From: Prillingera fragicola
Lineage: Eukaryota > Basidiomycota > Tremellomycetes > Trichosporonales > Trichosporonaceae
Assembly (NCBI GenBank): GCA_002335605.1
Contig: BEDY01000001.1
Coordinates: forward strand, 496,001 to 560,000
Direction of reading: 5' to 3'
Length of the DNA: 64,000 nucleotides
Shown: piece after piece, positions 12,289-24,485 of the stretch
Layout: every line of letters begins with the position of its first letter
How positions within the stretch are numbered: position 1 is the stretch's first letter
Translations under genes and position numbers: made by a program
Notes under the pieces: model-generated
What the model was told of the DNA's origin: nothing
The model's database searches: none
Seen by the model: only the letters and a program-made list of their open reading frames with translations

Positions 12289-15235
12289 ATGGAGTCAGGA
12301 GCTATTCAAGGTAGGTTGGCCATTCAGGCGACACCGCTGACATACAGCCCCGCTCCCTTCCCCTTCCACACCTCTCCAGGCAGTCGCCGCTACAGACATT
12401 CACGAACTGCTCCTTGGCCTCGACGCAGACGACTTTGATGACTTTGACGATATAGAGCAAGGCTCTCTCGGCCCTAGTGTACGCGACGATGCCGTTCTTC
12501 CCCCCCACTCCACTTGCGAGAAGCGCGCTCATGACGACACGCAGCGGCAACGTGAGTCAACCCGAGTTGCCCCTGTTGATAAACCAGGCTCTGCCTCTCC
12601 CTATGAAGACTACGACGACAACTTTACCGTCCCACCACCAGGCGACACCCCTGCGGTGGTCTCGTTCGCCACCGCGGCCGGCAAAACCCTCGCCCCTCCC
12701 TCAGAAGCGGCCATGTCTCGTGCGCTCAAGATCATGCGTGACGCAGAGCGCGATCTCGAAGTAGGCGACGAGGGTGATGGCCCCGGGCCATCAAAGAGGA
12801 GACGCGTCGACGAGCCGTCCATGCCCACGTCGACTCCGGTGGCGCAGATTCGTGATGCCCTGGCCGAGTTACGGAACGGTCTCGATGGTGGCGCAGAGCA
12901 GGTGGAGGACGAGGTTCCGGTCGCATCAACCATTACACCGGGCGGGTTTCAGCTCGGATCGGGTCGTGCAGCTCCAGATCCCTCCGACAATGCTCGTGCT
13001 CGTGCTCTTGCACTTTTCACGGAAGACGACGATGAGGCAGCTATTCCCAGCCATTGCTCAGCAGACAACCGCTCGGCAGCGAAGTCCGGCTTTCAGTTGG
13101 GATCTGGTTTTGTCCCTCCAACACAGTCACAAAGCGTTGCGCGAGCTCTTGCAATCTTCAACGACGACCATGCCCGTGCGGGTCCATCGACTCGGCCCGG
13201 AACGCCCACACGCTCGATGGCATTCCGCCCTCCGACGACTCCTCTTCTCTCCGGGTCACCTGCCGTTGCTCGACGGCTTCTAGCCGGAGCTCCCCTGCCA
13301 CCCTCAACTCCCTCCCGCGCTCCCTTACAGACCACTACCAATACGTTTGCCACACCGCGACCCGCGACGCCATCGCAGACCAAGCTGTCCCGTGGCATTG
13401 AGATCAAGGGCCAGGTGGGCACACCTCGTCGCATTGGTCTCGGATTCTCTACACCGGGCTCTGCGCGAGGCAAGGCCCGCAAGGGGTTTAGTACACCGTT
13501 CAAGCCGCCTGGAGCTGTCACCAATGCCAAGTTTAGCACCCCACTGTCGAGCCTTCGCGTGCCAGTCAAGCCGCCAACGCCGGTCAAGACCTATGAGCCA
13601 GTGTTCGATCTGAATCCGCCAGCAGACCGGGAGAGTATGCGCGAGGCGTACCTCTACCCGGGTTTCTACACTGAGGGAGACATGCTCGGCATGGGCCTGC
13701 CCAATGAGATCTGGACTCTCGGCCTCACCAACGCGATCTACTACCAGTTTGTCGCTGAGGACGCCTCGATGCTCGGCAATAAAGAAGCATTCCAGAAGCT
13801 CAAGCGCGACAAGTGCGAGCTTGCTACCCAGAAGTGGGTGGACAACCACTGGGCTATGATTCTGTGGAAGATTGCTGGCCAAGTCTCGGCAAAGCCTACA
13901 TTGTATGACGAAAAGTGGAACTGGTACGAGGTCATTTGCCAGCTCAAGTATCGCTACGAGCGCGAGTATGGAGCTGCCCTCCGACCACTGGTCCGCCGGA
14001 TTCAGGAGCACGACTCTTCCCCGAGCCTGCCCATGGTTCTGTGCGTGGCCGGTGTCTACCACCCCGAGCCGATTCTCGACGAGAAGGACGAGCCGGTGCC
14101 ACAGCGGCCATACCTGTCCCTCACCGACGGATGGTATCAGATTCGAGCGACTGTGGACGACTGCCTCGCCCGCGCCATTGTCAAGGGCAAGATCCGCGTT
14201 GGTCGCAAACTAGGCATTTCGGGCGCCAAGCTCGAGTCAGGCGCGGACGGCAACGACGCGCTCGACGCATTCGAAAAGTCCAACCTTGTGTTGTCGGGCA
14301 ACTCTACGCATTTCGCAAAGTGGGATGCCAGACTTGGTCAGCACGCGCTGCCGTTCATTGCGGGTCTTTCGAGCCTGTCGGTTGACGGCGGTTCGGTTGT
14401 CCTGATGGATATCGTGCTCGACCGGGTCTACCCACTCGCATACATGAACGGAGACCGAGGATCACGCGAGGCGCCGTGGAATGAGGAGGAGGAGGCCAAG
14501 CGCGCAGATGTCTGGAAGGAGAAGCTTGAATCCGAGACGACGCGCCTGCAGGACGAAATGCGCAAGAATCTCGAAAAGATCGAGGACCTCGCCTCTCTCC
14601 TCGCCTCTTACGCCGAGGACGTGAGCCATGTGGGCATGGAGCCTGACAACCTCGACAATGACTTTGACGAAATTCTCGAAGCCAAAGATCCGCGCCCCCT
14701 CCTGCGCGCCATGTCTGGAAGCCACGTTGTACACCTCGCCCGCCACGCTCGCAGCCGCGTCCAAGAGGCCGCGATGGAGGAACGCGCCGAGCTCGAGAGA
14801 AAACTCAAGGAGACGTGCCCGCCGCGCTCGGTCCGCGATTTCCGCATGGTGCGCTTCTGCGACGCGCGTTCCGGGCGCAGGGAGCCGGCGCGCACGGGGA
14901 TGTTGAACGTGTGGGATGCGGCTGCGCTTGGCAACGAGTTGGTGGAGGGCAAACGGTATTTGGTTTCCAACCTTATTCCGGGCAAGAATGGGGATTGGAA
15001 GAAGCCAGTCGCGGGGGCGATGACCGAGGTCTACCTCCACACGCGCAGGGAGACGAGGTGGAAGGCTGTCGAGGTGCCAGAGCCCCAGCCTGTGGTAGCT
15101 GAGCCACCCGAGGAGTCTGTCGAGTCACCTAAAAGCGCGCCTGCCCAGGAAGAATCGGCTGTGAAGACGGAGCAGGGAGTGGAGACAGTCAAGACGGAGA
15201 CCGTCAAGACCGAGTGTGGTGTGAAGCAAGAGTAG
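12289..15235 (+). CDS. BRH2: BRCA2 homologue (Brh2), Rad51 mediator
   Basis: Loads Rad51 onto single-stranded DNA in homologous recombination. Two exons, 12289-12310 and 12348-15235, give 969 residues. An acidic N-terminus (DADDFDDFDD) precedes a BRC-type repeat at residues 114-140 (FATAAGKTLAPP, then ALKIM, the Rad51-binding FxTAxGK pattern) and two degenerate copies at about 208 and 256 beginning GFQLGSG. The DNA-binding region begins with the helical domain near residue 435 (YLYPGFYTEGDMLGMGLPNE, TQKWVDNHWAMILWKIAG) and continues into OB1 (GWYQIRATVDDCL, IVKGKIRVGRKLGISGAKL). A charged helical stretch that could be the base of the tower and a further OB-like segment follow. The C-terminus has several VKTE repeats. 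The continuous frame from exon 2 supports the 12289 start (MESGAIQ). Confidence 0.93.
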
Positions 15236-16372: not shown

Positions 16373-18684
16373 GGTGGTGTTGAAGAGGTTGGCAGTGTCA
16401 ATGGCGGCAAGAAAACGAATGCTGGCTATCTTTGGTGTCTTGGTGGTGGGGTCGGCATCTACCCGGCAGGCAGTGTGGCACCATAACGTCATAGCCGAAG
16501 CAGCCGATCCCTCCGAGATTGACTCCGTCAGTGTGGCCCCCAAGTGGCACCGTGGCATGCATCGGTGGTGTGGTAGCGAGCAGGGTGGCGGTGGTGGCAT
16601 TCGCAGGACCATGGCCAACGAGCTCCGCATACATTGCCCTGTCATCTTGGATTTGTGATTTTCTCGGACCCACTTGGTTAAGCTGCTTACATGACCAAGC
16701 CACGAGGCCGACACATCGCGGCCATCACTTTCCATGGCCGCCAAGTTTCGTGCAAATAAAGTGGGTCAAGCATCCACTAGGCCGCGAACATGCATCGAGT
16801 GCTCCATAGCAACGGAGACTGCAACAGTGGCTGCAACACTTTCAGTGACGCAAGGGCAGAGCTGCTCCTTTCCAGTAGTAGCTGGAACAAAATGGCGTCG
16901 CAAGACAATCTCCTTGGCCGCTGTTCGCCAGTTCCAGGGCAGCACATGAAAGATGACACTGACACTCGACACAGGGGTTCGTTCCCCCCCATCTCTGCCC
17001 TGGAAGGATTGTTTGAGGGTACGGTACCACTCTTTCGACCCTGGTCGCGACCAGGCCCCTTGCTCCATAAATTCTGGACCCGAGGAGCTTCCGGCCGCAC
17101 GTGAAGTAGTGCTGTCATTATTCTTTTGGAGATCTCGAGCGACGTGCGGGTGTGCTCTCGTGGGTTGGGGTACGACCCAAGAACCGGCGGATGTGACATG
17201 CCAAAGAGCAAAACTCATTTGCGTATTCTTGTTCTGCGTGTAAACTTTGATGTGTTTGAAGCTAGTGGAAGTGTGCAGGGGAAGGAACAGCACAGGGTTG
17301 CAAGGTCGAACGAGGCACAGTCCCATGTGTGCAACGGCATGCAGTGAGGCTGCTCCTGAATAGCCCAGAGGCAGAGTACTGGGTCTCGCAAGGTCTGGGA
17401 GACAACGCTGTCACAGAGGTGAGTTTCTGGATGGATTGGAAGACTGCAGCGATGGTAGTCGTGTGGGGGTCTTTGAGGTTCCACGAAGTGTGGCGTTCTT
17501 CCCCCTCCATTTTCCTCTTGCTGGGTCATGTCTTGATCTCCCGTGAGTGACTCTGTAAACTTATAGAAAAAAGCGTAGACGAACAGCTGCAAGATGTAAA
17601 GAAGCTGGCCAGTGGCCAGTGGAGTACTCTGATTTTCCGTCGTTGTCAAGCGTCCCTGCCAACAATCGCCAATCGGTGTCCAACTCATGGGCTCAACTCA
17701 CAGGCTCGTGCCACGTTCTACTTGGAACAAGCTACTACAAGCACTCCTTGGCCCACAGATAACCACTACAGCTCTTTCACTTTCAGTTTGACTTCATCCA
17801 TCATTCTATCAACGAGGGGGATCCATCAATTCCCCTCAGTGGCCTCGAACTGCAGTGCTACTCGCCTTTGTAATTCGCCTCCTACTTCACGCCTTCCGTC
17901 TTTTTGGCAACCTAGCGAAGGTCCAAACTCAGATTTGTTCTGGTTATCAGTCCCAGCAGTTGAATGGAGTCCTCTTCAATACCCACTGGCGTTTCGTCCA
18001 AACTTCGAGGAAAGGCCACGAACAACTCTTGCGCTTCCTGCTCTTGGCGTCACAGTGCTATACTGGCCTGGCATGGTGAGTTTCTGGGTATCCCATACCC
18101 CTCAGCTCTGTGTTCTATCCCTATTTAAATCTTTCTCCTTTTCGCTATACCAAGAGTTGGGGTCTATGCAGGAGCTTGGCCACCCCGGAGGTGGAACAGT
18201 ACCATGCCATCTCCAGGGCTTCTTTGAGGTGTGGATCAACTAACAATTGATTTGTCAACAAAATCTATGCACAACCACTGCCGGCTAACCAATACCTGAC
18301 TTATCTCAGATATTCAAGCTGCAGAGCCATTCCTTTCTTTGCTCATTCGACGATGCGGCCGACTGCCACATCGAGGACCGGCTGAAGTGGCGGCTAATAT
18401 CCCTCGTCAGCCGCGTCTGTTCAACAATCCTCATTCCACTTCTGCTCAATGCGGCACGACCATCACTCTTCCCGGCTATAACAATACTAACCCTACCATA
18501 TCATTGGATTGGGTGGTATCATCCGTTTCCGGGAGCACGGTTGACTAATGGGACAGCATATGACTCCATCAACGCTTGCGTCCAGCTGACGAGCCACCCG
18601 TGCTACCTTGGAAAGGCATAAAAGACAAGACTCTGGAGCCTCATCTCTCTTATTCTCTCATCTCATCACAGAATATTACACATC
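16373..18684. other. 2.3-kb divergent intergenic region
   Basis: Holds the promoters of the unknown gene at 15408-16372 and of the Leu-x-x repeat gene. Several isolated splice-like signals occur between 17700 and 18320 (a GTGAGT near 18075, a CTTATCTCAG near 18301-18310), but I could not join them to a conserved protein; a non-coding or long 5' leader transcript is possible. Confidence 0.5.
18617..18624 (+). promoter_or_regulatory. TATA-like box of the Leu-x-x repeat gene
   Basis: CATAAAAG lies 61 bp upstream of the ATG at 18685 and is followed by a CT-rich stretch (18640-18670), the usual arrangement of a short-leader, strongly expressed fungal gene. Confidence 0.55.
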
Positions 18685-20565
18685 ATGTCGCAGTTTTACT
18701 TGCCCAGGTTCCAACTCCCCGAGTACTTTGGCAACGTCGACAATGTGATCGTGCCCGTGGCTGCGCCCGCTGTCCCCTCCGATTTCCTCAACACCACTTG
18801 CACCTCCGACGACTCTACCAAGCTGCTCGGTAACAACTCTATCACCAGCCAGAGCTCCAGTGAAAACACCATGGCGCACTCTACCCCAACACCGCCTGCC
18901 AACCTGCCCGCATCCGGTTATGTCCCCATCATAATGCCGGGCTCTTACGCCGCTGCTGATCTTGTGTCCACCTCCAAGCCGCTTCCCGCCTCGCCCATGT
19001 CCACCTTCACTGTCCTCCCTCCATCACCGGCTCTCACGAGGGTGGATGGAACAGCCACCACAGCCCCTCCCGTTCTCGAGGCCAAGAGGTTTATACCCCC
19101 TCGCTTTCTCAGCCCCGAGTGCCTCGCAGCCAACCCGGTCATCGCCGCGATGTACCGGACTGACCGCGTTGTCCCTCTTCCTCTCACCGACGGCGTTCTT
19201 GCCACCCTTCTCCACTGGTCGGCCTTTGTTCTGGGCACGAGGGGGGAAAGTCCCAGCCAGTGTGCCGAGACACGCGAGCTCCTCTCCTGGGTCCTCGAGT
19301 ATGAGGGCTCCAATGATGCCGCACCCTCCGAGCCCATTCCCGCCCCAGCTTGCTCGTGCGGCACCAGTCCGTCAGCCGTCAATGAGCTAGGCACCGCCGT
19401 CGAAGGCCTTGGCGACGTTCTTGGTGGAATCGAGTCCAAACTTGCTCACCTCGACCAGCTCGAGGGCCTCGAGGCCCGCCTCACCTCGCTCATTACCCAG
19501 CCCAATGCCGGAACGGTGGCACTCGAGCGCCTTGGCAAGGCTGTGGACACACTTGGTGGCGTTCTCGGCAATCTCGAGGACAAGCTCAGCAAGCTTGACG
19601 TACTTGACACCGTCGACGACAAGTTTTCGGCCATTGAGACCAAGCTCGACTCCACCCTGCAGGCCACTAGCACGGACTCTGCTCTCCACAGGCTCGAGGT
19701 ACTCGGCAGCACGATGTTGGTCCTTGACGCCAAGCTCGACAAGCTGAACCTTCTCGACGACATTGGCTCGCGCCTCAAGCGTGTCAGCAAGCGGGTGGCG
19801 GCCAATCCCGACGCCGCCCAGATTGCCCAGGCCCTCCAGCCCTCTTTCGACACTGTTGACGAAAAGCTCAAGTCGCTCTCCAAGCTCGACTCTCTTGAGA
19901 AGCTGGAAAAGCTTGACGCTCTCGGCGAGCTCACCTATCTCTCGGACCTCTCCAACCTCGCCTACCTTGAGCGTCTCGACAAGCTCTCAGCCCTCGAGGA
20001 CCTGGACTCGCTCAACGATCTCGGCCAGCTCAAGCAGCTTGAAATGCTTGACAAGCTCGACCTCCTCGACCAGCTCTCCAACCTCGACTCGCTCACCAGC
20101 CTCCAGCGCCTTGACGACCTCTCTGCTCTGAAAGCCCTCCCGACCCTTACCCCCGAGACGCTCAACAGCCTCGAAGACCTCAAGCACCTCTCCCAGCTAG
20201 ACCAGCTCGAAAAGCTCTCAAAGCTCAACCACCTGGGCAAGCTCTCAAACCTCTCAAAGCTCAACCAGCTCGACAATCTGTACGAGCTCTACAAGGGTGC
20301 CCGCGGCGAAATGAGTATCAAGCTTGACAAGCTCGACATGCTTGATCGCCTCTACAAGCTGGATAGCCTCAGCAAGCTCGATAAGCTCGGCAAGCTTGAG
20401 AAGCTGGATCAGCTGGATATGCTTGGACAGCTCAAGAAGCTTGATCGTCTTCAGGATGAGCAAGAGGACGACGAGGACGAGGAGCTTGGGCAACTCGAGA
20501 ACGACGAGTCAGAGAACTCGGAGGACGAGGAGTATGATTACCTCGAGGCCGATGAGCTGTCCTAA
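18685..20565 (+). CDS. Novel Leu-x-x triplet-repeat protein
   Basis: Single exon, 626 residues; I recognise no family. Residues 1-130 are Pro/Ser/Thr-rich and disordered. Residues about 135-210 look globular (FIPPRFLSPECLAANP, TDGVLATLLHWSAFVLG). Residues 232-375 hold three or four degenerate repeats of about 45-50 residues built on LGxVLGxxExKLxxLDxL. From residue 395 every third residue is leucine: 32 consecutive triplets (395-490), 15 (493-537) and, after a GARGEMSIK break, 15 more (547-591). The x positions are mostly Asp, Lys, Ser, Glu, Gln and Asn. The C-terminus is strongly acidic (EQEDDEDEELGQ onward). No signal peptide or membrane segment is seen. Period 3 does not make an ordinary amphipathic alpha-helix; a solenoid, 3-10-like or polyproline-II-like fold are possibilities. 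It is convergent with the promethin-like gene. Confidence 0.85.
   Translation: MSQFYLPRFQLPEYFGNVDNVIVPVAAPAVPSDFLNTTCTSDDSTKLLGNNSITSQSSSENTMAHSTPTPPANLPASGYVPIIMPGSYAAADLVSTSKPLPASPMSTFTVLPPSPALTRVDGTATTAPPVLEAKRFIPPRFLSPECLAANPVIAAMYRTDRVVPLPLTDGVLATLLHWSAFVLGTRGESPSQCAETRELLSWVLEYEGSNDAAPSEPIPAPACSCGTSPSAVNELGTAVEGLGDVLGGIESKLAHLDQLEGLEARLTSLITQPNAGTVALERLGKAVDTLGGVLGNLEDKLSKLDVLDTVDDKFSAIETKLDSTLQATSTDSALHRLEVLGSTMLVLDAKLDKLNLLDDIGSRLKRVSKRVAANPDAAQIAQALQPSFDTVDEKLKSLSKLDSLEKLEKLDALGELTYLSDLSNLAYLERLDKLSALEDLDSLNDLGQLKQLEMLDKLDLLDQLSNLDSLTSLQRLDDLSALKALPTLTPETLNSLEDLKHLSQLDQLEKLSKLNHLGKLSNLSKLNQLDNLYELYKGARGEMSIKLDKLDMLDRLYKLDSLSKLDKLGKLEKLDQLDMLGQLKKLDRLQDEQEDDEDEELGQLENDESENSEDEEYDYLEADELS
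19867..20457 (+). repeat. Leu-x-x coding repeat (62 triplets in three runs)
   Basis: The 9-bp periodic sequence encodes residues 395-591 of the protein at 18685-20565. Leucine codons alternate between CTC, CTT and CTG and the intervening codons vary, so this is not a simple recent microsatellite: the amino-acid period is kept while the DNA has diverged. Confidence 0.9.
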
Positions 20566-22526: not shown

Positions 22527-24485
22527 ATGGCCGACCCTACTGCGTTCTACGAGCCCGAGGAGGATGAGCTCCTTTCGTCCCTTGCCGTCCCCCAGTACGG
22601 CGGCGAGGAGGGCTACGACGAGGAGAGCTACCGTCGTCTCCAGGAGCTCCAGCAGCACGCGTACCAGCAGCAGCTTGCCGCCGCTGAGCAGGAGCAGGCT
22701 CAGGCGCTCGAGCAGGTTCCCGAGGACGTGAAGCGCGTGCGTAGATGGCAATGGGCGTCGAAGCGGACTGTATGACTGACGCGTGCAGTTCCTTGTGCTT
22801 TTCCACCAGGCTATCCTTGACAACGACCTCCCCGCTATCACCAACATGTACGAGAGCGGCTGGAACAAGCTCACTCAGGTGAGTGGCAACGCCTTGAACA
22901 AAGAGGGACGCGTTGCTAACCCTTTCCTTAGGCCCACTACCAGCAGGCTGAGTGGCCCGAGGCCGAGCTCATTGCCCCTCTTGTCCAGAATGACCAGGTC
23001 TTCCTTACCCTCTACCGCGAGCTGTACTTCCGTCACGTCTACGCTCGTCTCCAGCCCACCATTGACGACCGCTTCCAGTCTTACGAGAACATTTGCGAGC
23101 TGTTCAACTACCTCCTCAACTCGGACGGACCCGTTCCCCTTGACCTCCCCATCCAGTGGCTCTGGGACATGCTCGACGAGTTTGTTTACCAGTTCCAGTC
23201 GTTTGCTCAGTGGCGTGCCAACCCCAAGAACAAGTCGGAGGATGAGCTCGACATGCTCGCCGAGGCTTCGCAGATCTGGTCGTGCTACTCGGTCCTGAAC
23301 GTTCTCTACTCGCTCGTCCAGAAGTCGCAGATCAACGAGCAGCTCCAGGCCGAGAAGGCTGGCAAGAGCCCCGAGGAGGTTGCCGAGATTGCAGGCAACT
23401 ACGGATCCAAGCCCCTTTACAGGAATCTTGGATACTTCTCGCTCATCTGCCTGCTCCGAGTCCACGTTCTCCTCGGCGACCCCACCCTTGCCCTCCAGAC
23501 CATGGAGCACGTCGAGCTCGGCGGCGGTGCGTTCCTCACCCGCATCACTGCATGCCACGTGACCACCTACTACCACGTCGGCTGCGCCTACATGGCACTC
23601 GGCCGCTGGCCCGACGCGATCAAGACCTTTGTCTCAGTCCTCATCTTCTTCCTCCGCATGAAGCAGTACCACACCAGGAGTTACCAGTACGGCTCGATCA
23701 CCAAGACCTCGGAGCGCATGTACGCTCTCCTTGCGATCTGCACCACCCTTTCGCCCGGCCCCTCGGACGACAGCATCATGACCATTGTCAAGGAGCACTA
23801 CGGTGACCAGCTTCAGACTCTCCAGCGTGGCGGCGACGAGGCCCTCGAGACGTTCAAGGAGTTGTTCCTCCAGGCATGCCCCAAGTACCTCTCGGTCAAC
23901 CCCCCTCCTTACGAGGACAACGACGCCCTCCAGGAGTGGATGGCCAACCCTCCTCCCGACGCCACCCAGCGTCACCTCGACTTGTTCCTTTCGGACGTCG
24001 GTGCCATCCGTGGTGTCTCCAACGTCCGCAACCTTCTTAAGCTCTACACCTCGATCGATGCCGCCAAGCTCGCCGCCTTCCTTGAGACCTCGGGCGACGG
24101 CGCCGATGCCGAGGAGGAGGTCCTCCAGCAGCTCATGGTCCTCAAGGCCGCTTCGCGTACTTACGGCAAGGGCGCCGGCGAGGGCTCGCTCCTCGATGGT
24201 GACCGTATCGTCACCAACAACCTCGACTTTACCATCGACGGCTCCATGGTCCACGTCGAGGAGACCACCTCGCACCGCCGTTTCGCAGGGTTCTTCATCC
24301 GCAACGCCGAGCACGCCCAGCGCGTGTTCAACACCATCCGCCAGAGCCCACTCCCTACCCAGCGCAAGCCCCAGGACAAGGCTGCCGGCGACAAGGAGGG
24401 CAAGGGCGCCGCGGCTGCTGCTACTGGCGAGCGGAAACCGGCCGCTTGGGCACCCAAGTCGCGCCAGGCTCGTGTTGCGGCTTAG
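22527..24485 (+). CDS. Eukaryotic translation initiation factor 3 subunit L
   Basis: Exons 22527-22736, 22789-22878, 22932-24485 give 617 residues, close to the family's usual 540-600. eIF3l is a non-core subunit of the eIF3 scaffold on the 40S ribosome in the cytosol; it is present in most fungi but absent from budding yeast. Diagnostic segments: [101 protein letters not shown], plus the C-terminal PCI region with [15 protein letters not shown]. The N-terminal 70 residues are acidic and Gln-rich. The tail ([20 protein letters not shown]) is a short Ala/Lys extension. The ATG at 22527 follows an in-frame leader with CCATCATGG context. Confidence 0.97.

Follow-up and report, generated by a model that had tools for sequence, protein, structure and literature searches.

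The question raised by this locus was what structure, and what function, can be expected of a protein in which every third residue is leucine over a length of about 190 residues. The protein, P0001, is the 626-residue product of a frame that is open throughout positions 18685-20565 on the forward strand of a 64,000-nucleotide stretch of the Prillingera fragicola genome (contig BEDY01000001.1, positions 496,001 to 560,000; "the window" below is this whole stretch). An earlier note on this DNA had described 62 Leu-x-x (Lxx) triplets of exact period three, lying between degenerate repeats and a strongly acidic tail, and had placed the protein in no recognized family. Our reading, to which we give a probability of roughly 0.4, is that P0001 is a non-enzymatic, self-associating structural protein whose Lxx array has a backbone near three residues per turn.

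Recounting gave the same runs of 32, 15, and 15 triplets, and the acidic tail was likewise found as described (Table 1). When residues 385-595 were shuffled 20,000 times, the longest Lxx run to arise was 12, compared with the 32 observed. The spectrum of hydrophobic residues peaked at exactly 3.0 in both parts of the array, which places the period outside heptad geometry, as had been claimed; the peak in residues 232-380 was at 3.4. The three positions of the triplet differ in composition and would form distinct faces: leucine, an x1 position at which acidic or turn-forming residues predominate (27 acidic, 5 basic), and an x2 position that is about half basic or amide (8 acidic and 21 basic; Fisher p = 8e-6).

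Codon choice was used to judge the frame, with synonymous-codon scores trained on the eight Pfam-supported exons of the window, which ranged from 0.042 to 0.344. The 626-residue frame scored 0.191 per codon and the array alone 0.289, whereas the other two forward frames scored −0.214 and −0.239, and the three reverse frames 0.003, −0.223, and −0.396. Because codon choice in the frame follows that of the eight known exons and the other frames are negative or close to zero, we take the frame to be, very probably, a genuine gene, with an array that carries the native codon preference. The array leucines are encoded by CTC (40), CTT (13), CTG (8), and CTA (1), the same usage as in the remainder of the gene (chi-square p = 0.71), and Tandem Repeats Finder detected short arrays only, with 72-91% matches. 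Since third-base usage at these leucines matches that of the other leucines in the gene and the DNA-level repeats are weak, the array is old and does not resemble a fresh repeat expansion at the DNA level, in agreement with the earlier note.

The degenerate repeats ahead of the array, also as previously described, are marked by four [ED]xKLxxLxxL cores at residues 250, 298, 348, and 392, with spacings of 48, 50, and 44. Every core includes a short Lxx stretch. Cores 1-3 each have four Leu/Val/Ile triplets before a mixed spacing of 3 and 4 resumes; core 4 continues into the array. The simplest reading would be that the array grew out of the Lxx stretch in this last repeat. Residues 232-394 as a whole show the mixed spacing, with a peak of 3.4, and are predicted to be helical with a block pLDDT (predicted local distance difference test) of 55-75.

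Relatives and copies of the protein were also searched for. In its own genome (20,248,525 bases in 17 contigs; 5 candidates scored), the full-length protein matched only itself, and the repeat part gave two more stretches at E ≤ 10 (E 0.03 and 0.08), which we took as noise; by these searches the gene is the only clear copy. At their cut-offs, no Pfam family and no NCBIfam family was assigned to P0001, nor was any solved structure found above the cut-off by sequence search, so the earlier statement that no family was recognizable holds. About 5.8 billion proteins were also searched, with scoring limited to the 7,993 candidates that shared the most words, and 25 matches covering 19-35% of the query were returned. 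Twenty-four of these, referred to here as the comparison proteins, carry 30-75 triplets, counted in runs of at least four; the other is a plant leucine-rich-repeat (LRR) protein, P0026. Two of the 25, when aligned in full, matched the array and further pieces of the 232-394 repeats. The Lxx spacing thus occurs beyond the fungal protein, in otherwise unrelated proteins, and does not stand alone. No relatives were found for residues 1-395 at E ≤ 1 or for residues 128-228 at E ≤ 10 (58 candidates scored).

A taxon could be named for one match, from a Bacteriovoracaceae metagenome-assembled genome, and for three genome loci, L005, L006, and L007 (Halobacteriovorax/Bacteriovoracaceae); all nameable carriers of Lxx arrays were therefore Bacteriovoracaceae. 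Like P0001, these proteins (P0009 and L005-L007) have exact Lxx runs of similar length and number (39-73 triplets in P0003-P0024), together with an acidic or turn preference at x1 and a basic preference at x2. All of the comparison proteins except P0002 and P0025 (22 of 24) align over a hydrophobic stretch followed by a C-terminal domain, and most of those 22 have an LGFGE-like motif; the membrane helix was judged by eye. P0001 lacks both the hydrophobic stretch and the domain and ends instead in its 35-residue acidic tail. Among 129 genomes of that bacterial order, 29 matched at E ≤ 0.001, some through weak repeat matches only, and 13 at E < 1e-70.

Common descent of the fungal and comparison arrays was assessed by aligning 8 of the 24 proteins with the fungal array and, in each case, with 200 shuffles of that array that kept the register and the x1/x2 composition. 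In seven comparisons, 27-186 of the 200 shuffles scored as well as the real array. For P0009 only 1 of 200 did, which points weakly the other way. Because seven of eight comparisons were no better than shuffles, and P0009 was one of eight tests and had been chosen by similarity, convergence appears likelier than homology.

Selection on the leucines was seen directly in pairwise comparisons of L005, L006, and L007, in which leucine was identical at 60/60, 61/61, and 60/60 positions, the positions being taken from the runs of the first member of each pair. Leucine codons were only 18-23% identical, with synonymous sites saturated, and the x positions were 51-82% identical. The pN of 0.08-0.13 at these codons reflects multi-step paths between the two leucine codon boxes, with no residue changed. 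Among 21 aligned relatives there were 19 invariant columns, all leucine; with the fungal piece and three further matches added, 10 invariant columns were left, again all leucine. The earlier proposal of selection on protein structure is thus plausible for the amino-acid period of the fungal array, its direct demonstration being confined to the three Bacteriovoracaceae genes.

These results bear on the view that the array is an unstructured, leucine-rich segment of low complexity that either persists through replication slippage or weak selection or forms condensates without a defined fold. Its simple composition (30% Leu), the low confidence of the AlphaFold2 model described below, and the failure of residues 1-395 to find relatives are all consistent with that view. 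We nevertheless consider it unlikely: all 62 register positions are leucine while the third bases follow the gene's own usage, DNA repeat identity is low, and the comparison arrays retain every compared leucine at synonymous saturation.

In PMC4786415 the number of residues per turn in alpha-helical coiled coils is assumed not to fall below 3.33. Because the array has a period of 3.0, below that limit, it is not expected to form an unbroken alpha coiled coil. The heptad form specifically was rejected for residues 395-591 by the spectral peak at exactly 3.0 in both array parts.

To measure charge pairing, the x1 and x2 means were removed and the residual covariance of charge was then computed offset by offset. 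A set of 18 comparison proteins, with 54 runs and 1,015 triplets, gave z values of −7.0, −8.2, −7.7, and +1.6 at offsets 1 through 4; the covariance was negative in 22, 24, 22, and 8 of all 24 proteins, respectively. A plain shuffle of the same 18 gave −6.5, −7.9, −4.4, and +0.2. Five pooled E. coli long-helix controls (2,040 residues), limited to the parts that we take to be helical, gave +0.1, −1.0, −4.0, and −5.3 by the same plain shuffle. Opposite-charge pairs at i+4 numbered 113 in the comparison arrays, compared with 141 expected. Because neighbors at i+1, i+2, and i+3 pair by charge and those at i+4 do not, the comparison arrays, in which alone this pairing was seen, favor a backbone of about three residues per turn. 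The 3-10 helix, polyproline-II helix, and tight solenoid suggested earlier are candidate folds for the array.

Several observations weigh against extending this geometry to P0001. The fungal array, with its 62 triplets, gave residual z values of −2.3, +1.2, +0.2, and −2.4 at offsets 2 through 5, so that the anticorrelation at offset 3 is missing; the plain-shuffle value of +3.6 at offset 3 is explained by the x1/x2 bias. Most of the comparison proteins come from a single family and do not count as independent. The control is uneven, in that MukB taken by itself had no alpha signature (z of +0.1 at offset 3 and +0.2 at offset 4). Stable 3-10 helices of great length are not known. Structure prediction, which the earlier note had proposed as a check, drew alpha-helix: AlphaFold2, with the 24 comparison proteins included in the input alignment, placed helix across most of the fungal array at low confidence (block pLDDT 43-70; predicted template modeling score, pTM, 0.21). 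A comparison array was also modeled as low-confidence helix (pLDDT about 42-55). A Foldseek search of the fungal model against the PDB found no match.

Taken at face value, that prediction would suit alpha-helices that break at the two interruptions and pack as an antiparallel bundle. Run 1 (96 residues) would then lie against runs 2 and 3 (45 + 45), and the leucines that spiral around each helix would be buried. We regard such a bundle as possible, though not the probable answer. The length of run 1 roughly equals that of runs 2 and 3 together, the upstream repeats look helical, and the helix propensity of the array is moderate (Pace-Scholtz mean 0.40-0.44). The low pLDDT of both models, the shortage of i+4 charge pairs in the comparison arrays, the complete lack of 4-residue spacings in the 96 residues of run 1, and a period below the coiled-coil limit all speak against it.

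A fiber with core repeats in multiples of three residues has been described, and it suggests a trimer of parallel chains, built from hexads or nonads (two or three Lxx triplets) in which short beta-layers and helix alternate, as in Thermosinus Tcar0761. According to PMC4786415, beta-layers arise where insertions strain a heptad coiled coil to the breaking point, and the prophage tail fiber 2C3F has two beta-layers in hexad spacing, a precedent that we counted in favor of this alpha/beta fold. The fungal array resembles the Tcar0761 proteins in its multiple-of-three core repeat and in its position beside coiled-coil-like segments. It differs from them in lacking, by reading, the A-T-K consensus of the beta-layer and in having almost no adjacent leucines, and any trimer of it would be putative. 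In the same paper, the beta-layers prefer hydrophobic residues at beta1 and beta2, with beta2 small; this is a preference and not a strict definition. Residues 395-591 contain LL once, no Val, and 6 Ala, and x1 and x2 show no super-period of 6 or 9 residues (z −0.2 and +0.6). We consider the alpha/beta coiled coil quite improbable.

LxxLxxLxx segments are also found in SDS22-like LRR proteins and internalins, and a degenerate solenoid of that kind was considered because all seven proteins scanned had a weak match to the NCBIfam internalin_A profile (P0001, E 0.0052; P0009, E 1.6e-8). PMC2946307 gives the SDS22-like consensus as LxxLxLxxNxLxxLxxLxxLxx with one 3-10 element per unit, which we counted toward this possibility, and defines the LRR core as LxxLxLxx[N/T/S/C]xL. 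That core occurs 6 times in the plant protein P0026, in 3 of the 24 comparison proteins, and not at all in P0001, where LxL is present only once in residues 395-591. An LRR solenoid is therefore very improbable. LRR units are 20-30 residues long; in the fungal array, similarity at offsets of 3-39 residues showed no excess (|z| < 1.6), in a sample of only 62 triplets. Membership in internalin A (NF033189) was rejected for P0001 at 15.1 bits against a cut-off of 1600, and membership in Pfam LED_rpt (PF20854) at 6.4 bits (E 9.6) against a cut-off of 59 bits. Weak similarity to the LED_rpt profile was seen for P0025 (E 0.0055) and for 4 of the 21 members of alignment A1 (best E 0.00076), and none of 57 genomes exceeded its cut-off.

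Returning to the reading that we prefer, the N-terminal ~230 residues would form a flexible Ser/Thr/Pro-rich lead, followed by helical, coiled-coil-like repeats in residues 232-394 and by an array of 62 triplets that may have derived from the last of these. The array backbone would probably lie near three residues per turn (3-10-like) and not form a regular alpha-helix. Its leucine faces may pack together within or between chains to give a rod or bundle, a putative scaffold or oligomerization platform, with the acidic tail keeping the protein soluble or binding a basic partner. A scaffold or self-association role is the most likely and best-supported function, although the step from anatomy to scaffold, like the fold and the growth from the last repeat, is one that we infer. 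More broadly, and as a tentative and doubtful generalization, Lxx arrays could be an undescribed repeat class near three residues per turn with leucine, acidic/turn, and basic/amide faces, which arose independently in the fungal protein and in Bacteriovoracaceae membrane proteins and forms long rods or bundles that are neither coiled coils nor LRRs. A fold with about three residues per turn, if the array has one, would represent a natural backbone repeat distinct from both coiled coils and LRR solenoids, and one left unresolved by AlphaFold2 here. The comparison arrays make such a fold testable, through their many sequences, strict leucine conservation, and non-alpha charge-pair signature. Should the array prove helical, it would still depart strikingly from the period limit that coiled coils are assumed to obey.

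Table 1. Features of the Lxx gene and its product, in window coordinates.
Feature	Position	Strand	Basis or remark
TATA-like CATAAAAG	18617-18624	+	candidate from sequence; probably the "TATA-like box" of the earlier note
CT-rich stretch ending in CACAG at 18671	about 18640-18671	+	candidate from sequence
Ser/Thr/Pro-rich region, residues 1-130, 19 prolines, probably disordered	18685..19074	+	composition
Orphan segment, residues 131-231, some hydrophobic stretches, 12 prolines	19075..19377	+	composition
Degenerate 44-50-residue repeats, residues 232-394, coiled-coil-like	19378..19866	+	spacing 3/4 mixed, peak 3.4
Leu-x-x run 1, residues 395-490, 32 triplets	19867..20154	+	
Register break, residues 491-492, Leu to Leu 5 residues	20155..20160	+	
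Leu-x-x run 2, residues 493-537, 15 triplets	20161..20295	+	
Interruption separating run 2 from run 3, residues 538-546, Leu to Leu 12 residues, register kept	20296..20322	+	
Leu-x-x run 3, residues 547-591, 15 triplets	20323..20457	+	
Acidic tail, residues 592-626, with 20 acidic residues and none basic	20458..20562	+	composition

Prolines 486 and 490 are located within the final two triplets of run 1. Regulated expression had been proposed from the TATA-like box and the CT-rich leader; that proposal was not sustained, for the region from 18617 to 18671 could equally be a promoter and leader or the 3′ end of an intron. The CT-rich stretch that precedes the start codon closes with CACAG, a possible 3′ splice site, which makes the N-terminal boundary of the 626-residue protein less certain.

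The upstream gene (12341-15232, forward strand) is BRCA2-like, with OB1 and helical domains (PF09103, E 5e-33; PF09169), and the downstream gene (22932-24482) encodes PAF67 (PF10255, E 9e-151), which we take to be eIF3 subunit L. These neighbors point to no pathway for the Lxx gene. Together with an snR61 snoRNA, they mark the genome as eukaryotic.

The bacterial array genes, unlike the fungal gene, adjoin MotA/MotB-like genes. In all three loci (L005, 2369-5545; L006, 2370-5536; L007, 725-3892), the Lxx gene lies divergently beside a MotB/MotA-like pair, which was called by Pfam MotB_plug and MotA_ExbB in L005 and by eye in L006 and L007. A protein of ~355 residues is encoded downstream in these loci; the L005 copy has no Pfam family. 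The bacterial gene may belong to the flagellar motor or another MotAB/ExbB-type machine. The Lxx profile matched both strands of the same DNA at G071:C6 about 63.2-64.8 kb and at G120:C78 about 32.8-33.2 kb. AAGCTT, which encodes Lys-Leu, is its own reverse complement, and this may make either strand of an Lxx array readable.
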